Positions 3,200 through 47,843 of a stretch of 64,000 nt of DNA are shown one piece after another. The position numbers and the translations under genes were made by a program. The first letter of the stretch is position 1. Each line of letters opens with the position of its first letter. This stretch comes from Bacillus spizizenii TU-B-10 (GTDB lineage Bacteria; Bacillota; Bacilli; Bacillales; Bacillaceae). The stretch spans positions 573,001 through 637,000 of the forward strand of contig NC_016047.1 of the NCBI RefSeq assembly GCF_000227465.1. Reading direction: 5' to 3'. Below the pieces are notes generated by a model. It did no database searches and had not been told where the DNA came from. It was given only the letters and a program-made list of their open reading frames with translations.

Positions 3200-4209
3200 G
3201 CATGAAAGTGGTAAAGCCCGGACTGCTCACAACGGTTCAGGATATAGGCAGAACGGGGTATCAAAAATACGGCGTTCTGGCAAGCGGAGCCATGGACACG
3301 GTTTCGCTGCGCATTGCCAATCTGCTGATCGGCAACAGCGAAAATGAAGCCGGTCTTGAAATTACGCTGATGGGGCCCGGTCCGTCGTTTTATTTTTCAA
3401 AAACGACGTTGATTGCGGTGACAGGGGCGGACTTCACTTTGCGTATTAATGACGAAGAAGCACCTTTGTGGAAGCCTCTGCTCGTCAAGGAAAACAGCAC
3501 GGTCAGCTTTGGTCCCTGCAAACTCGGCAGCCGTGCGTATTTAGCAACAGCCGGCGGCTTCGATGTGCCTGCCGTCATGGAAAGCAAAAGCACGTACGTC
3601 AGAGCAGGGATCGGCGGACTTCATGGCAGAGCGCTTCAAAAGGAAGATGAACTATCCATTGGGGAGACGTCATCTCTCTCGCAAACCATTCTTTCCCGAT
3701 TAAGCCCGCAGCTTGGAAAGCAGGGATTTGCAGCGCCGAAATGGTCGGTCAGCCGCGGGAGGTTTCTGCCATTGAAAAAGAATCCTGTCATTCGGGTGCT
3801 GGAAGGAAAACAATTCGGCTTTTTTACAGAAAAATCGAAAACGTGTTTTTATGAAGAAACATTTCGTGTCACGCCACAGTCCGACCGTATGGGCTACAGG
3901 CTCAAAGGAGAACCGCTCGAACTGAAGGCACCGCTAGAGATGGTGTCAGAAGCGGTTTCGTTTGGAACAGTTCAGGTGCCGCCTGACGGCAACCCGATTA
4001 TCCTGCTTGCAGACCGGCAAACGACCGGCGGCTATCCGAGGATCGCGCATATCATATCCGCTGATCTTCCGATTGTCTCCCAAATCATGCCGGGCGAGCA
4101 CGTCCAGTTTGAGCCTGTATCCCTTCAGGAAGCGGAAGCGCTTGCGATTGAACGGGAACAGCATATAAAAGAACTGAAAACGAGAATGAAGATGGAATGG
4201 CTGACATAA
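3196..4209 (+). CDS. kipA: 5-oxoprolinase subunit C / KipI antagonist KipA
   Basis: This is a 335-337-residue protein of the biotin-dependent carboxyltransferase-like (PxpC/KipA, allophanate hydrolase subunit 2) family. The N-terminal signature [22 protein letters not shown] is clear, and the C-terminal half has the family stretch [17 protein letters not shown]. It completes the PxpABC enzyme and is known to counteract KipI. AAGGAGGAG at 3182-3190 favours the TTG at 3196, which overlaps the kipI stop; ATG 3202 is the alternative and removes two residues. The overlap implies translational coupling, which would keep the B and C subunits equimolar. Confidence 0.94.
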
Positions 4210-4224
4210 CAAAGGAGATGAATG

Positions 4225-4977
4225 ATGCAGAATAAAAACAAAACCGTAGTCAAATCTATGGCTCTGCTTAATTTGTTTTTGCATGAACCAAGTCTTACCT
4301 TAAGTGAACTGGTATCGCTGTCAGGTATGCCGAAAACCTCTGTTCACCGGATGGTCAGCTCTTTGGAGGAAATGGGGTTCCTCAATCGGGATTTGTCCGG
4401 CGCTTATTCGCTGGGACTGGTATTTTTGGAATTCGGACAGCTCGTTGCTGACAGGCTGGATATTAGAAAAATAGCGAAACCGGTGATGGAAGAGCTGTGC
4501 CGGGAAGTGGATGAGGCCGTGCAATTGATCATGAGGGACGGCAATGAAGCGATATACGTTGAGAAAATAGAAGGGACACAGACTGTGCGGCTGTACACGG
4601 CGATCGGCAGGCGTTCTCCTCTGTACGCTGGAGCGTGCGCCAGAAGCATTTTGTCCTTTCTTCCCTGTGAAGAAATCGAAACATACATCAAACAAACGGA
4701 GCTCATTTCAATTGGCTCCGGCACGATTACCGATCCCGAAAAATTGCTGCAGGAGATTGATGCCTCTATACAAAATGGCTATACCGTCAGCTATTCAGAG
4801 CTCGAAAACTATACAGCGGCCATCGGCGCCCCGATCTTTAACCATAAGCGTCAGGTGGCAGCCGGCATCAGCATTGCAGGCTTTGAAGCGAGATTTACAG
4901 AAGACAGGCTGCCTTATTTAACAGAAAAGGTGAAGGATGCCGCTTTACAGATTTCCAGAAAAATAGGGTATTCATAA
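4225..4977 (+). CDS. kipR: IclR-family regulator of the 5-oxoproline/kip operon
   Basis: This is a 250-residue IclR-type repressor. Residues 1-65 form the winged helix-turn-helix (LTLSELVSLSGMPKTSVHRMVSSLEEMGFL), and residues 75-250 form the effector-binding domain with the conserved YAGACARSILSFLP and GAPIFNHKRQVAAGISIAG stretches. It is the last gene of the operon it is known to repress. AAAGGAG at 4211-4217 lies seven bases before ATG 4225, so that start is preferred over the adjacent ATG 4222. The ligand is not visible from sequence; 5-oxoproline or a nitrogen signal is a reasonable guess. Confidence 0.94.
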   Translation: MQNKNKTVVKSMALLNLFLHEPSLTLSELVSLSGMPKTSVHRMVSSLEEMGFLNRDLSGAYSLGLVFLEFGQLVADRLDIRKIAKPVMEELCREVDEAVQLIMRDGNEAIYVEKIEGTQTVRLYTAIGRRSPLYAGACARSILSFLPCEEIETYIKQTELISIGSGTITDPEKLLQEIDASIQNGYTVSYSELENYTAAIGAPIFNHKRQVAAGISIAGFEARFTEDRLPYLTEKVKDAALQISRKIGYS

Positions 4978-16847: not shown

Positions 16848-17264
16848 TTGTGTTTTCAGGGGCGATATGTTATCATGAATAGCTAGTAAGAAAAATAAGC
16901 AAATAAAAAAGAAAGTAAACTTCTTTTTTCTGTTTTGAGAGAGAAGCTTACCGCTTCCCAAGCAGCATAACCAGCTGCCCTTATTCTTTTCCTTCATAAC
17001 AAATCGCCCCTAACGATGAGATGGAAAAAAGACTTTTTTGTTTTACAATTCACACCGGCGCGGCTTCGGAGCCGCAGTGACGATTGAGAGGTAGGGCTTT
17101 CGTTGTCTTGTGTTCAAGAAATTTCCATGGTGTTTACTTTCCAGAATGATTCTTCGGAACAATGCTTTATGAATCTAACCCGCCCGACTTGGCGGATGAT
17201 ATAATCTTTATTTGCGTATAGAAAAGAATAAGACAAACCGCTCGGCGTACGCCGGCGGTTTTTT
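16848..17264 (+). ncRNA. Candidate untranslated RNA between ydaG and amj
   Basis: The 504 bases between ydaG and amj hold no convincing reading frame but look transcribed. TTGTGT-17-TATCAT (16848-16876) is a plausible sigma-A promoter. An A/T hairpin lies near 16907-16932, a GCGGCT-TCGG-AGCCGC stem near 17060-17076, and a strong terminator at 17235-17264 (AAACCGC pairing with GCGGTTT, plus CGGC with GCCG, then T6). An extended -10 TGATATAAT lies near 17200. It could be a small RNA or an attenuated leader of amj. I do not recognise a riboswitch class. Confidence 0.45.
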
Positions 17265-28711: not shown

Positions 28712-28918
28712 GAAAACAAATCGCTTAATCTGAAATCAGAGCGGGGGACCCATTAGAACGGCTTTTTTGCCGTTGGGGTGAATCCTTTTTAGGTAGGGCA
28801 AACTCTCATATGCCCGAATCCGTCAGCTAACCTCGTAAGCGTTCGTGAGAGGAGATGAATGAAACCTGTGTTCGATGTGATGGCACAGGGGCATCCGTTT
28901 GCCTCTGTGTTTTTTGCT
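28712..28918 (+). promoter_or_regulatory. c-di-AMP (ydaO) riboswitch of kimA with terminator
   Basis: The leader holds the class-defining blocks GGGGGACCCA (28743-28752) and CCGTCAGCTAACCTC (28820-28834), closed by CGCTTA (28722-28727) with TAAGCG (28836-28841). The expression platform is a terminator, CACAGGGGCA (28884-28893) with TGCCTCTGTG (28900-28909) then T6. CCTGTG at 28865-28870 can pair with CACAGG 28884-28889 instead, freeing the gene. In the known class, c-di-AMP binding favours termination, shutting off K+ import. Confidence 0.95.
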
Positions 28919-29049: not shown

Positions 29050-30873
29050 ATGTATCATTCAATCAAACGTTTTTTGATTGGGAAACCACTAAAATCTCAA
29101 GCAGCTGGAGAGCAAAAACTGACGAAATTAAAAGCCTTAGCGATGCTTTCCTCAGATGCGCTTTCATCTGTCGCATACGGCACAGAACAAATTTTAATCA
29201 TTTTGGCAACAATCAGTGCTGCTGCATTTTGGTACTCCATTCCGATTGCGATTGGCGTCCTCATATTGCTGCTCGCACTGATTCTTTCATACAGGCAAAT
29301 TATTTACGCTTACCCGCAGGGCGGCGGAGCGTATGTTGTGTCGAAAGAAAACCTCGGTGAAAAGCCGGGATTGATCGCAGGCGGTTCACTGCTTGTCGAT
29401 TATATTTTAACGGTAGCGGTAAGTATTTCCGCAGGAACGGACGCTATCACGTCGGCCTTTCCTGTATTGCATGATTATCATGTGCCGATTGCTGTTTTAC
29501 TTGTTTTAGTCATTATGATTTTGAACCTGCGCGGGCTTTCGGAATCAGCATCGATTCTTGCCTATCCGGTTTATCTGTTTGTGGTGGCACTTTTGGTTTT
29601 GATAGCAGTCGGGTTGTTTAAACTCATGACAGGGCAAATAGACCAGCCAGTCCATCATACACCGCTCGGTACACCTGTAGCCGGCATTACGCTGTTTTTG
29701 CTGCTCAAGGCTTTTTCTTCGGGCTGCTCGGCTTTGACCGGGGTTGAGGCCATTTCTAACGCGATTCCTGCTTTCAAAAACCCGCCTGCGCGAAACGCGG
29801 CTAGAACTCTTGCAATGATGGGCATTTTGCTGGCGATTCTGTTTTCTGGGATCACGGTGCTCGCATACGGCTATGGAACGGCGCCGAAGCCCGATGAAAC
29901 GGTGGTTTCACAAATTGCGTCTGAAACCTTCGGGCGGAATGTGTTCTACTATGTGATCCAAGGTGTCACATCACTTATTTTGGTCCTTGCGGCAAATACG
30001 GGATTTTCAGCCTTCCCGCAGCTTGCCTTCAACCTGGCGAGAGACCAGTACATGCCGCGTATGTTTACAGTCAGAGGCGACCGCTTAGGCTTCTCAAATG
30101 GGATTATCTTTTTAGGCGTTGCTTCGATTGTGCTCATCCTGCTATTCGGAGGACAGACAGAGCATTTAATCCCGTTATATGCTGTGGGCGTATTTATTCC
30201 ATTTACGCTTTCGCAAACCGGCATGTGCATCAAATGGATTAAGCAAAAACCAAAAGGGTGGATCGGAAAAATGCTGATCAACTCCTGCGGCGCTTTGATT
30301 TCGTTTATGGTTCTGTCGGTCCTGTTTGTGACGAAGTTTAATGTTGTATGGCCTGTGTTAATCTTTATGCCTATCGTCGTTTTACTGTTTTTTGCGATTA
30401 AAAATCACTACACAGCTGTCGGTGAACAGCTTCGCATCGTAGACAAAGAGCCAGAAGAAATCAAAGGCACGGTTGTGATTGTGCCTGTAGCTGGTGTCAC
30501 CACCGTCGTGCAAAAATCGATTCACTATGCGAAATCACTGTCCGATCAGGTGATCGCAGTTCACGTGTCATTTGACAGAGAACAGGAAAAGAAATTCGAA
30601 AAACGCTGGGAAGAGCTCAATAACGGAGTGCGTCTCGTTACGCTTCACTCCTCGTACAGAAGCCTTGTCCATCCGTTTGATAAGTTTTTGGAAACAGTTG
30701 AGGCAAAAGCGAAGAAGGAGCAGTTTTCCGTCATGGTGCTGTTTCCGCAATTTATTACGAAAAAACGCTGGCACACCATCCTTCACAACCAATCGGCTTT
30801 CCTCCTCAGAGTCCGGCTGTTCTGGAAAAAGGACATAATGGTTGCCACGCTGCCGTATCATTTTAAAAAGTAA
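29050..30873 (+). CDS. kimA: High-affinity potassium importer KimA
   Basis: This is a 607-residue KUP/APC-superfamily transporter. About 12 membrane segments fill residues 25-450, starting with [11 protein letters not shown] and the conserved [24 protein letters not shown]. The C-terminal cytoplasmic domain (about 465-607) is universal-stress-protein-like and binds c-di-AMP in the known protein, so both RNA and protein are controlled by the same nucleotide. It imports K+ with protons at low external K+. AAAAGGGG precedes the ATG. It is monocistronic, between the riboswitch and a terminator. Confidence 0.96.
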
Positions 30874-44281: not shown

Positions 44282-45334
44282 ATGGCCGCTTTAGTTAAAT
44301 TTTTTCAGCACCCGGGAGTAAGGCGTTTTTCCGTCTTTGTCGTGTTAACTGGTGTGTTATACCTATTTAAGAGCATGATCAACTTAATATTGCTGACTTT
44401 CATTTTCACATTTCTTATGGATCGTTTGGAGCTTGTCGTACGGCAGTTTTTAAGCCAGTTCTTCCATGTGAGCCAGCGGGTGGTCATTACGTTTCTTTAC
44501 ATGTTGCTGGCTGTGCTGCTTACAGTCGGGGGGTTTGTATTTTATCCTGTCGTCGCGGCGCAGATTCAGCAGCTGGTAAAGCAGATTAAACATATTGCGT
44601 ATCACCCGGACACCATCCCTTTCTTTGATGAGATCACCAGTGTTTTCGGAGATATTAATGTCAGTTCATATGTCAAAGAGGGTTTCAATGTGGTGTATAC
44701 GTATCTGGCAGATATCAGCACATTCGGCTTGCAGATCGTAATGGCGCTCATTCTCAGCATGTTTTTCTTATTTGAGAAAAAACGGCTTTCTGAATTCATG
44801 GCTAAATTTAAAACGAGCAAACTGGCGGTCTTTTATGAGGAAATTGCTTTTTTCGGAAGCAAATTTGCAAGAACGTTCGGCAAGGTGCTTGAGGCTCAAT
44901 TCATCATTGCGCTCGTCAACTGTATTCTGACGTTTATCGCGCTTTGGATTATGCATTTCCCGCAGCTGTTTGGGCTTTCTATTATGGTGTTCTTCCTTGG
45001 ATTGATCCCTGTAGCAGGCGTCGTCATTTCTCTGATCCCGCTCAGTATTATCGCTTACAGCACTGGCGGCGGAATGTATGTGCTCTACATTGTGCTTGTC
45101 ATATTCGCCATACATGCGATCGAAACGTATTTCTTAAATCCGAAGCTGATGTCTGCGAAAACGGAGCTGCCGATCTTTTTCACCTTCACAGTACTCATTT
45201 TCTCTGAGCACTTTTTCGGTATTTGGGGTCTAATTATCGGGATTCCGATCTTTGTGTTTCTCCTAGATATTCTTGATGTCACCAACAAGGAAGAAGGACC
45301 CAAAAGATTCCAAGAGAAAAGTAACAAAAAATAG
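44282..45334 (+). CDS. ydbI: AI-2E family transporter YdbI
   Basis: This is a 350-residue membrane protein of the AI-2E (UPF0118, TqsA/YdgG) family with about seven to eight membrane segments and the family-conserved C-terminal part FFLGLIPVAGVVISLIPLSIIA and YFLNPKLMSAKTELPIFFTF. Members export autoinducer-2 or act as Na+/H+ antiporters; the substrate here is unknown. AGGAG precedes the ATG. No terminator is seen after its stop; the promoter of the next leader starts at once. Confidence 0.88.
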   Translation: MAALVKFFQHPGVRRFSVFVVLTGVLYLFKSMINLILLTFIFTFLMDRLELVVRQFLSQFFHVSQRVVITFLYMLLAVLLTVGGFVFYPVVAAQIQQLVKQIKHIAYHPDTIPFFDEITSVFGDINVSSYVKEGFNVVYTYLADISTFGLQIVMALILSMFFLFEKKRLSEFMAKFKTSKLAVFYEEIAFFGSKFARTFGKVLEAQFIIALVNCILTFIALWIMHFPQLFGLSIMVFFLGLIPVAGVVISLIPLSIIAYSTGGGMYVLYIVLVIFAIHAIETYFLNPKLMSAKTELPIFFTFTVLIFSEHFFGIWGLIIGIPIFVFLLDILDVTNKEEGPKRFQEKSNKK

Positions 45335-45363
45335 TTTACAAAATTGGATCTTTTCTGTATAAA
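45335..45363 (+). promoter_or_regulatory. Sigma-A promoter of the second c-di-AMP leader
   Basis: TTTACA (45335-45340), 17 bases, TATAAA (45358-45363), beginning one base after the ydbI stop codon. The start of RNA would be near 45370. Confidence 0.8.
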
Positions 45364-45384
45364 TAAACTAAATCATACAATAGT

Positions 45385-45567
45385 AAGCCACACGCTTAAT
45401 CCTTTTATAAGGAGTGGGGGACCCAATCTTTTGGGGTTAATTTTTCATCTGAAAAACGGACATCTCTTCGTCCGAACCCGTCAGCTAACCTCATCAGCGT
45501 GAAGAGAGAGTCCTGTGGTTTGAAGTTACAGCCAAAGCCCACGGGAGTCTCTCGCGGGCTTTTTTTC
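45385..45567 (+). promoter_or_regulatory. c-di-AMP (ydaO) riboswitch before a DAACS symporter
   Basis: The leader shares two exact blocks with the kimA riboswitch: GGGGGACCCA (45416-45425) and CCGTCAGCTAACCTC (45478-45492). CACGCT (45391-45396) closes the fold with AGCGTG (45496-45501). The terminator has its stem arms within 45536-45560, followed by T7. GAGAGAGTCCTGTGG (45504-45518) can pair with CCACGGGAGTCTCTC (45539-45553) with 13 of 15 matches, a competing antiterminator. Ligand binding is therefore expected to turn the gene off, as in kimA. Confidence 0.93.
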
Positions 45568-45586
45568 AAAAAAGGGAGGAATGCGG

Positions 45587-46825
45587 ATGAAACTGGCTAC
45601 AAAGATAATCATTGCATTGGTGCTAGGTGCGGTGACGGGGATTATTCTTAACGTAACATCACCTGAATTATTTGAAAATTTAAATAAGTTTGTATTCGGG
45701 CCGCTGGGCACCATCTTTTTAAACCTCATTAAAATGCTTGTCGTTCCGATTGTCTTTTTCTCATTGACACTCGGAGTAGCCGGGCTGGGCGATCCTAAGA
45801 AGCTTGGCAGAATCGGTGTAAAGGCGATTTCTTATTTTCTCGTCACGACAGCAGTGGCGATTACCATTGCCATCATTTTAGCTCTTGTCATCAAACCGGG
45901 AGAGTTTGGAACGTATGATACATCGTCTGCCGAATTCACTGCTGAAAAAGCGCCAAGTATTGCGGACACCCTGTTAAACATTATTCCGACCAACCCTGTG
46001 CAAGCGATGACGGAAGGAAATATGCTGCAAATTATCGCTTTTGCCATTTTTGTCGGGCTTGGGATTACAATGCTTGGGAAAAAAGCGGATATGCTTCTCA
46101 AAGTTGTTGAACAAGGAAATGAATTGATGATGTACCTGGTGAATCTTGTAATGAAGTTCGCTCCGTATGGTACATTCGGTCTGATTGCGACAGCTATCGG
46201 AAGCCAAGGGTTCAGCGCAATGAAAGCGATGGGCTTGTACATGATTGTGGTAACCCTTGCATTACTGATACATGCAGTCGTTACCTACGGATCTACGGTT
46301 GCGCTTATAGCCAGAAGAAATCCGATTACGTTCTTTAAAAATTTCTCAGAGGTTATGGTCGTTGCATTCAGTACTTCCAGCAGCAATGCGACCCTGCCTG
46401 TATCCATGGATGTGGCCCAGAAAAAATTAAAAGTGCCTGAGCCGATCAGCAGCTTCGTCCAGCCGCTCGGTGCTACAATTAATATGGACGGAACAGCCAT
46501 CATGCAAGGGGTAGCCACTGTCTTCATTGCGCAGGTATTCGGGCATGATCTGACATTCACTCAGCTGCTGATGGTGATACTGACGGCAGTGTTAGCAAGT
46601 GTCGGTACCGCGGGTGTTCCTGGAGTCGGCTTGATTATGCTCGCCATGGTGCTTCAATCTGTCGGCCTGCCTGTCGAGGGAATCGGATTAATTCTTGGAA
46701 TTGACCGTCTGCTTGATATGCTCCGTACAGTGGTGAACACAACAGGAGACGCGGCCTGCGCCGTCATTATTACAGAAACAGAAAAGAACAAACAGCCTGA
46801 GCAAACGCCGACTCTATCGGTTTAA
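45587..46825 (+). CDS. Glutamate/aspartate:cation symporter (GltP/GltT-like)
   Basis: This is a 412-residue DAACS-family carrier with eight membrane helices. The hairpin-1 motif SSSNATLP, the NMDGTAIMQG motif and the helix-8 stretch DRLLDMLRTVVNTTGD are those of glutamate/aspartate transporters: the Asp, Arg, Thr and Asn that hold the amino acid in the GltPh structure are all present. ATG 45587 is about eight bases from AAGGGAGG; ATG 45581 is too near. It is a paralogue of gltP/gltT and is not at this locus in B. subtilis 168 as I recall it. It is monocistronic behind a c-di-AMP riboswitch. Confidence 0.9.
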   Translation: MKLATKIIIALVLGAVTGIILNVTSPELFENLNKFVFGPLGTIFLNLIKMLVVPIVFFSLTLGVAGLGDPKKLGRIGVKAISYFLVTTAVAITIAIILALVIKPGEFGTYDTSSAEFTAEKAPSIADTLLNIIPTNPVQAMTEGNMLQIIAFAIFVGLGITMLGKKADMLLKVVEQGNELMMYLVNLVMKFAPYGTFGLIATAIGSQGFSAMKAMGLYMIVVTLALLIHAVVTYGSTVALIARRNPITFFKNFSEVMVVAFSTSSSNATLPVSMDVAQKKLKVPEPISSFVQPLGATINMDGTAIMQGVATVFIAQVFGHDLTFTQLLMVILTAVLASVGTAGVPGVGLIMLAMVLQSVGLPVEGIGLILGIDRLLDMLRTVVNTTGDAACAVIITETEKNKQPEQTPTLSV

Positions 46826-46858: not shown

Positions 46859-46895
46859 AAACAGTGCCTAATTTTTGGGCACTGTTTATTTTTTG
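46859..46895 (+). terminator. Terminator after the symporter gene
   Basis: AAACAGTGCC (46859-46868) pairs with GGCACTGTTT (46878-46887), followed by ATTTTTTG. It lies between a TGCTATAAT box (46848-46856) and ydbJ. Confidence 0.88.
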
Positions 46896-46916: not shown

Positions 46917-47843
46917 ATGGCTGAGCCGATTTTACATATTGAAGGCCTCGATAAAAAGATTGGGTCTAAACAGATTTTAAAACAGATCAGCATGGACGTC
47001 ATGGAGGGCGAAATCATCGGCCTGCTCGGTCCTAATGGTTCCGGAAAAACAACACTCATCCGTATCATCGTCGGGTTATTAAAACAAAACAGCGGAAGTG
47101 TGACAATCAGCGGATTTCAGCATGATACAGAGTTTGAAAAAGCGATGGAAGCGGTTGGAGCGATCGTCGAAAATCCTGAGTTCTATCCGTACTTGACAGG
47201 ATGGGAAAACCTCAAGCACTTTTCGAATATGCACAAAAAAATAACGGATGAACGGCTTGATGAAGTAGTGGAACGTGTAGGGCTGACATCAGCAATTCAT
47301 GATAAGGTGAAAACCTATTCCCTTGGCATGCGCCAGCGTCTTGGTATTGCACAGGCGATTCTTCACCGGCCGAAGCTTCTTATTTTAGATGAACCGACAA
47401 ACGGTCTTGATCCCGCCGGCATGAAGGATTTTCGCGATCATATTAAGGAGCTCGCAGAAAAGGAAGGAACAGCAGTCCTGTTCGCCACTCACTTATTGCG
47501 TGAGGTTGAAGATCTGTGTGACCGTGTCATCATCATTCAAAAAGGCGAGATCAAAGCGGAAGTCAGCTTACATGGAACAGATCAAAAAACAGAAAAAGCG
47601 ATCATTGAAGTGCAGCCGGAAGAAAAAGCGCTCAATTGGCTGGCAGGCAATCAATATCAAGCAGAGCGGCAAGACGGGGCGATTGTTGTTGAGGTAGCAA
47701 AAGAAAACATTCCGGAGCTGAATCGTTCACTTGTCGGACAAGACCTGAATGTCTTTTCCATTACGCCTTATACGCAACCACTTGAAGATGAATTCATAAA
47801 AGCGACAACTGTTCATCAAGAGGAGGGAGAAGAGCTTGTCTAA
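46917..47843 (+). CDS. ydbJ: ABC transporter ATP-binding protein YdbJ
   Basis: This is a 308-residue ABC ATPase. Walker A is GPNGSGKTT, the signature is YSLGMRQRLGIAQAI, Walker B is LLILDEPTNGLDPAG and the switch His is in FATHLLREVE. The C-terminal 80 residues are a domain seen in BcrA/YtrB-type export ATPases. With YdbK it forms an ABC-2 type exporter of unknown substrate. ATG 46917 is eight bases from AAAGGAGG; the frame is open 14 codons upstream across the terminator. It overlaps ydbK by eight bases. Confidence 0.92.
   Translation: MAEPILHIEGLDKKIGSKQILKQISMDVMEGEIIGLLGPNGSGKTTLIRIIVGLLKQNSGSVTISGFQHDTEFEKAMEAVGAIVENPEFYPYLTGWENLKHFSNMHKKITDERLDEVVERVGLTSAIHDKVKTYSLGMRQRLGIAQAILHRPKLLILDEPTNGLDPAGMKDFRDHIKELAEKEGTAVLFATHLLREVEDLCDRVIIIQKGEIKAEVSLHGTDQKTEKAIIEVQPEEKALNWLAGNQYQAERQDGAIVVEVAKENIPELNRSLVGQDLNVFSITPYTQPLEDEFIKATTVHQEEGEELV

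Follow-up and report, generated by a model that had tools for sequence, protein, structure and literature searches.

A leader RNA of the c-di-AMP riboswitch class stands directly before the gene of an SDF-family symporter in Bacillus spizizenii TU-B-10. We propose that this RNA is a transcriptional c-di-AMP OFF riboswitch acting on a Na+-coupled aspartate/glutamate symporter, so that one messenger would govern the uptake of both K+ and its counter-anion; we put the probability of this reading at about 0.8. The leader itself is an ordinary member of its class, and the novelty, as far as our searches reach, lies in its target and the neighbourhood of that target.

A full-length c-di-AMP riboswitch precedes a symporter gene

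The window, which is the whole 64,000-nucleotide stretch analysed here, contains the symporter locus and the kimA locus with the following features.

28712..28856, + strand: c-di-AMP riboswitch of kimA (RF00379, 103.4 bits by cmscan)
29050..30873, + strand: kimA, named from its place and its riboswitch; Pfam AA_permease_2
44282..45334, + strand: upstream neighbour, which we take to be ydbI
45335..45363, + strand: sigma-A-type promoter TTTACA-N17-TATAAA, from sequence and its recurrence in 21 aligned orthologous leaders
45383..45513, + strand: full-length c-di-AMP riboswitch aptamer (RF00379, 98.0 bits by cmscan)
45534..45566, + strand: intrinsic terminator hairpin with seven T (-15.5 kcal/mol for 45535-45569)
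45574..45579, + strand: ribosome-binding site GGGAGG, from sequence
45587..46825, + strand: SDF/DAACS symporter, probable Na+-coupled aspartate/glutamate importer, from PF00375, alignment with GltPh, key residues and dN/dS
46859..46887, + strand: terminator-like hairpin 3' of the symporter gene, with a 13-bp stem and a T run
46917..47843, + strand: downstream neighbour, presumably ydbJ

A cmscan search of the whole window matched 45383-45513 to model positions 1-134 of 134 in RF00379 (98.0 bits, gathering score 38, E 5.3e-22), so this segment belongs to the c-di-AMP riboswitch class. A sequence-only reading had assigned the leader to this class from two exact blocks that it has in common with the kimA riboswitch, and had suggested a search with the Rfam model; both blocks are present in the two aligned sequences, and the significant full-length match bears the assignment out. 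The same reading counted the leader as a second riboswitch, which is correct for the window, where the kimA and symporter copies are the two. The whole genome (4,207,222 bases in one contig) holds three RF00379 copies, the third being followed by an ORF that we label KtrA-like and whose relatives match TrkA_N/TrkA_C. The conserved core, common to the kimA and ktrA copies, has 32 invariant columns over 32 copies.

The leader had also been credited with its own promoter and terminator, and both were found: the promoter hexamers lie at 45335-45340 and 45358-45363, starting immediately 3' of the ydbI stop codon, and the terminator hairpin is followed by seven T. Both elements recur across 21 aligned orthologous leaders (21 of 30 loci, the other nine having been dropped, with the motif sought on one strand only). 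A generic promoter scan did not report the symporter-leader promoter because its rule requires T at the final base of the -10 hexamer. Elsewhere in the window, a match to the BsrC sRNA lies at 17030-17116 on the minus strand (79.3 bits).

A 3' tail may choose between the aptamer loop and the terminator

Three further elements of the leader are predicted to form the switch.

45462..45469, + strand: aptamer hairpin loop AUCUCUUC, pseudoknot partner of the 3' tail (loop-tail duplex -10.0 kcal/mol; pairing across copies)
45501..45514, + strand: switching tail GAAGAGAGAGUCCU, with the aptamer loop and the terminator arm as alternative partners (pairing across copies; folding energies)
45504..45553, + strand: predicted antiterminator, formed by the tail with the 5' arm and loop of the terminator (45500-45557 folds at -25.9 kcal/mol)

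The duplex of the tail with the terminator arm is calculated at -15.3 kcal/mol, compared with -10.0 kcal/mol for that with the aptamer loop. Folding of 45498-45570 gave the antiterminator as the minimum free energy structure (-27.0 kcal/mol), and blocking the tail gave the terminator (-19.6 kcal/mol). The loop-tail pseudoknot of the window copy comprises 9 bp, two of which are G-U pairs; 4 bp or more can form in all 31 copies examined, with one degenerate copy (L204) excluded. This pairing is only modestly specific: the mean score was 15.1 for native partners and also high, at 13.7, for swapped ones, and the native sum was reached by 3 of 2000 permutations, a figure uncorrected for relatedness.

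Of 60 leaders, some of them near-identical, 59 have a terminator-like hairpin, and in 53 of these 59 at least five tail-arm pairs can form before the hairpin is completed (fewer than five in the other six). In a thinned set, the hairpin was present in 29/30 leaders and in 29/150 dinucleotide shuffles; at -12 kcal/mol or better, it was present in 24/30 and 2/150, and together with a competing tail in 19/30 and 2/150, respectively. The antiterminator was the full-length minimum free energy structure in just 4 of the 13 leaders scored, so for most of these 13 it could act only while the RNA is being transcribed. Accordingly, antitermination at equilibrium was dropped as the general mode, and co-transcriptional action is proposed instead.

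We then propose a model for the switch. At low c-di-AMP, as at low K+, the tail would form the antiterminator by pairing with the terminator arm, allowing the symporter to be made. At high c-di-AMP, when K+ is sufficient, the ligand-bound aptamer would keep the tail through the loop-tail pseudoknot, so that the terminator forms and import ceases. Both ligand binding and the direction of control are predicted here from class membership and folding. The source genome carries three genes for DAC-domain proteins. The proposed mechanism would fit the OFF behaviour published for kimA and ktrAB; in the part of the source available, repression of kimA is 112-fold with glutamate and 5 mM K+ (PMC7857571).

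The symporter resembles Na+-coupled acidic amino acid importers

The sequence-only reading had placed a DAACS symporter directly behind the leader, and the ORF is indeed intact and of the SDF family (PF00375, 451.1 bits against a cut-off of 27.9, E 4.4e-135). The protein has 412 residues when read from the ATG at 45587, and the ORF is open from an ATG at 45581 (414 residues); the former is the more likely start, as judged from the ortholog alignment and the position of the ribosome-binding site. A terminator-like hairpin stands behind the gene (46859-46887), so its transcript is probably monocistronic. Where kept, the gene is under strong purifying selection, with dN/dS of 0.03-0.06 in 11 of 12 comparisons and undefined in the remaining one.

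In the alignment with GltPh, the symporter keeps the TM8 signature LDMLRTVVNTTGD as well as the NMDGT and GTAGVPG motifs. Equivalents of GltPh D394, R397, T398 and N401 are all present (TM8 LDMLRTVVN), as are the features of the Na+-coupled type, namely the D405 equivalent and NMDGT. We take D394 to contact the substrate amino group, R397 the side-chain carboxylate and D405 to belong to a sodium site. The place of D394 is taken by S in the genome's own DctP, and that of D405 by N in DctP and the GltT-like paralog, by H in the GltP-like paralog and by S in L088 (GltT-like and GltP-like are our own labels). The symporter is 29-39% identical to the four other family members of the genome, with 39% to the GltT-like and 35% to the GltP-like paralog, and the nearest solved chains carry the name aspartate transporter.

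No NCBIfam model scored above its own cut-off for the symporter. The names GltP (NF008440, 300.3 against a cut-off of 638) and DctA (NF002461, 253 against 513) were rejected. Together, the residues point to a Na+-coupled importer of acidic amino acids (aspartate/glutamate), in agreement with the substrate class suggested previously.

The riboswitch-symporter unit is widespread in the genus and was lost from some lineages

To describe its distribution, we used the RNA family and the symporter protein as queries against 44 genomes of the genus. An ortholog was identified in 34 genomes, 33 intact with at least 73% identity and one broken, and in all 34 a riboswitch lies 63-99 nt upstream on the same strand. 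These symporter-linked copies account for 34 of the 88 riboswitch matches in the genus sample. In G010, G019, G034 and G037, the symporter-linked copy is the only one among the matches listed, and stricter filters may miss others. The location between ydbI and ydbJ is shared with distant members of the genus (L004, L005, L053 and G008).

The broken gene, in G007 (L157, 3322-4704), consists of two pieces in different frames, one of which contains a TGA; the riboswitch before it still scores 89.8 bits, and the break is probably a recent loss. The gene is absent from ten genomes (G002, G003, G013, G016, G025, G026, G032, G033, G035 and G040). Because ten of 44 genomes are without the gene and one has a broken copy, the gene is dispensable.

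One of the ten, G035, looks to us like B. subtilis 168 and has its kimA riboswitch at 486 kb. Over 231 columns, its ydbI-ydbJ gap matches the 3' end of the gene plus the sequence behind it at 79% identity, and G033 contains the same 3' relic with 90% identity over 221 columns. Both relics begin at window position 46649, and searches with RF00379 and with our own covariance model found no symporter riboswitch left in either genome. This pattern fits one common deletion of about 1.3 kb that removed the promoter, the riboswitch and most of the gene. G025 retains a degenerate riboswitch (26.5 bits with our own model, not counted as a riboswitch), behind which no gene was found. A sequence search found no gene remnant in the seven other genomes, six of which have just 28-38-base matches beyond the stop codon of the gene and one of which (G013) has none; their losses are therefore suggested by parsimony. 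By the same argument, the riboswitch-symporter unit would be ancestral in the genus and would have been lost from the B. subtilis 168 lineage through the deletion of about 1.3 kb, the link to 168 being drawn from the resemblance of G035.

These findings bear on how the locus arose. The sequence-only reading regarded the gene as inserted and particular to this strain, took 168 to have no gene between ydbI and ydbJ, and proposed a comparison of that gap. A strain-specific insertion that captured a kimA-like riboswitch would agree with the gap of the 168-like genome, which indeed has no working gene, but the gap is not devoid of the gene, as it holds the 3' relic. With gene and riboswitch in 34 of 44 genomes, the same ydbI-ydbJ place in distant members, and relics in G035 and G033 with a common start, we reject the insertion, to which we give next to no chance. 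It is also very improbable that the leader is a decaying, non-functional copy. Such copies are known elsewhere, in G025 (26.5 bits) and G044 (51 bits), but the leader described here matches the full model at 98 bits, counterparts of its promoter, core, tail and terminator are found in orthologs, and the downstream gene is under strong purifying selection.

The symporter adjoins ktrAB in related genera

Outside the genus, 36 genomes of the same family were sampled, and 28 of them have an ortholog at 70-77% identity. A riboswitch lies upstream of the symporter in 14 of the 28 (one degenerate): in 5/6 for genus g2 (including the degenerate copy, 51 bits), 1/1 for g3, 7/7 for g4 and 1/1 for g6. 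None of the 13 symporter homologs of genus g5 has an upstream riboswitch of its own. The degenerate copy, L204 (G044, 4120-4261, minus strand), is a symporter riboswitch without the conserved 3' part and is perhaps a switch in decay.

In 18 of the 28 orthologs outside the genus, ktrA and/or ktrB lie on the same strand no more than 3 kb downstream; of the remaining ten loci, eight were covered over 2.9-5.5 kb downstream, and those of G055 and G062 over just 1.0-1.4 kb. A riboswitch precedes ktrA in 14 of the 18 ktr-adjacent loci. Seven genomes (G048, G052, G058, G060, G061, G063 and G065) show the order riboswitch-symporter-riboswitch-ktrAB, with 2.7 kb between in G063 and G065, and this order occurs in three sister genera, g2, g4 and g6. 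Seven g5 genomes have symporter-riboswitch-ktrA, with the first riboswitch missing.

Across the order, we sampled 150 genomes; 88 of them have homologs (E 1e-140 or better), which occupy 96 places. A riboswitch lies directly upstream at 24 of these (21 of 93 by our own covariance model, plus three own-family places from the earlier family and genus searches) and is absent at 72. Among named homolog loci, 14 of 80 have an upstream riboswitch, and our own covariance model gives the same 14, which include Bacillus sonorensis, B. zhangzhouensis, B. haynesii, Cytobacillus oceanisediminis, Metabacillus mangrovi, Alkalihalobacterium chitinilyticum and Tepidibacillus decaturensis. The two counts are not additive, since at least nine of the 80 named loci duplicate a sequence of another set (L009 is G060, for example). 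An own-model match at L346 (11.8 bits, E 0.8) was not counted as a riboswitch.

A gene tree was built with FastTree from 195 proteins, of which seven identical ones were dropped, with DctP as outgroup and nine genus loci entered. Over its 188 rows, the riboswitch state changes seven times, with the degenerate L204 labelled as riboswitch-bearing and with gain and loss indistinguishable.

Most other targets classified here are K+ importers

In a second sample from the order, 43 of 61 genomes yielded a total of 67 riboswitch matches, and joining their coordinates with the homolog places showed that 8 of the 67 precede an SDF symporter. We also classified the gene following the best-scoring copy in each of 29 genomes (L311-L339), a biased set. 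The next gene is a K+ importer in 27, and the targets are KimA (11), KtrA (5), KtrB (5), KdpA (5), Kup (1) and the SDF symporter (1), with L326 unread and with Kup and four KdpA classified from 70 residues each. Within this set, the symporter is the only target type other than a K+ importer. L331, at first taken as a riboswitch before an unknown ORF with no Pfam match, proved to be a triple riboswitch array before kdpA and was counted as kdp. Three c-di-AMP riboswitches likewise stand in tandem before kdpA at L340 (G084), L341 (G065) and L342 (G061), and two at L343 (G077); L340 and L341 have an additional copy on the opposite strand.

In the available parts of published work, the class is also linked to osmolyte and amino acid transporters and to cell-wall genes (PMC7266159, PMC11520302, PMC7288161), and its control of amino acid transporters beside K+ transporters is stated in general terms (PMC7266159, PMC11520302). 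SDF-family targets may be among these. KimA itself matches the Pfam family 'Amino acid permease', and this label may partly lie behind the wording "amino acid transporter". Na+/H+-dicarboxylate symporters appear among the targets of antisense-acting riboswitches in the portion of PMC9943018 available, which does not name c-di-AMP among the classes. No c-di-AMP riboswitch ahead of a symporter for glutamate or aspartate was described in the literature searched, as far as its text was available; one may be listed in the primary surveys of the class (Nelson 2013, Block 2010).

K+ and its counter-anion may answer to one messenger

We infer the substrate, the coupling ion and the physiology of the symporter from the comparisons above. 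In the proposed model, the K+ importers encoded by kimA and ktrAB and the uptake of the main counter-anion of K+ would answer to c-di-AMP through parallel riboswitches. The sequence-only reading had tied the symporter to K+ uptake, and this tie is stronger than could be seen from the window because relatives outside the genus have the gene next to ktrAB.

Several published observations, as given in the text available of each source, concern the same ions. B. subtilis without c-di-AMP tolerates no glutamate, and glutamate stimulates KtrCD (PMC7857571). AimA, GltT and GltP are the glutamate transporters studied there, and the control of aimA by c-di-AMP is described as 'yet to be uncovered' (PMC7857571). 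In L. lactis, c-di-AMP lowers the Glu/Asp counter-ion pools through K+ import (PMC8092236).

Two alternatives would accept the riboswitch and the symporter and differ on what is transported or why. The protein could carry another substrate, such as a C4-dicarboxylate, serine or cystine, as the SDF/DAACS family includes such types and no NCBIfam model exceeded its cut-off. We find this improbable, since the equivalents of GltPh D394 and R397 are both kept, DctP has S in place of the D, and the nearest solved chains are named aspartate transporters. The purpose could instead be carbon/nitrogen or aspartate metabolism, for example together with pyruvate carboxylase. In excerpts from work on other Firmicutes, c-di-AMP affects both pyruvate carboxylase and the pools of aspartate (PMC5575661, PMC7288161, PMC8822347), and in the genus the locus lies between dctP-ydbI and ydbJ, away from K+ genes. 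This purpose is a little easier to entertain than another substrate and still unlikely, because the gene adjoins ktrAB in sister genera and the other classified riboswitch targets are nearly all K+ importers.

We thus favour joint control of K+ and its counter-anion. On balance, we lean towards the wider view that c-di-AMP controls a cation/anion pair at the RNA level, the K+ importers and the symporter carrying the same riboswitch and the 168-like genome having lost the anion arm. A direct link from c-di-AMP to a probable aspartate/glutamate importer would then exist in most genomes of the genus (34/44), with only a relic in the 168-like genome. If true, loss of the anion arm from a genome like that of the model strain would account for the failure to see a direct c-di-AMP-glutamate switch there. 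The distribution also suggests that the regulon defined in 168 for the c-di-AMP riboswitch does not represent the genus completely.

Comparison with known systems

The symporter leader shares with the kimA and ktrAB riboswitches of B. subtilis the RNA class, the full-length match, the core, the loop-tail pairing and the terminator platform. It differs in its target, an SDF-family symporter rather than a K+ importer, and one hairpin of its aptamer is short, whereas the corresponding hairpin of the kimA and ktrA copies is longer. The kdpFABC riboswitch of B. thuringiensis, as described in the part of PMC6488665 available, likewise controls ion uptake, with a K+ ATPase as the target there and an amino acid symporter here. 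With GltPh and the 'aspartate transporter' 9bgz of the SDF/DAACS family, the symporter has in common NMDGT, the HP2 motif GTAGVPG and the TM8 pattern D..R..N..D; the protein described here stands behind a c-di-AMP riboswitch, and its transport activity is predicted from sequence. As with GltT, GltP and AimA of B. subtilis, the import of acidic amino acids would be tied to c-di-AMP and K+, and the available text of PMC7857571 names no riboswitch for aimA. In L. lactis, with GlnPQ and its Glu/Asp pool, c-di-AMP lowers the pool of K+ counter-ions, as it would in our model; the effect there runs via K+ import (PMC8092236, in the part available), whereas a direct RNA switch is proposed here.
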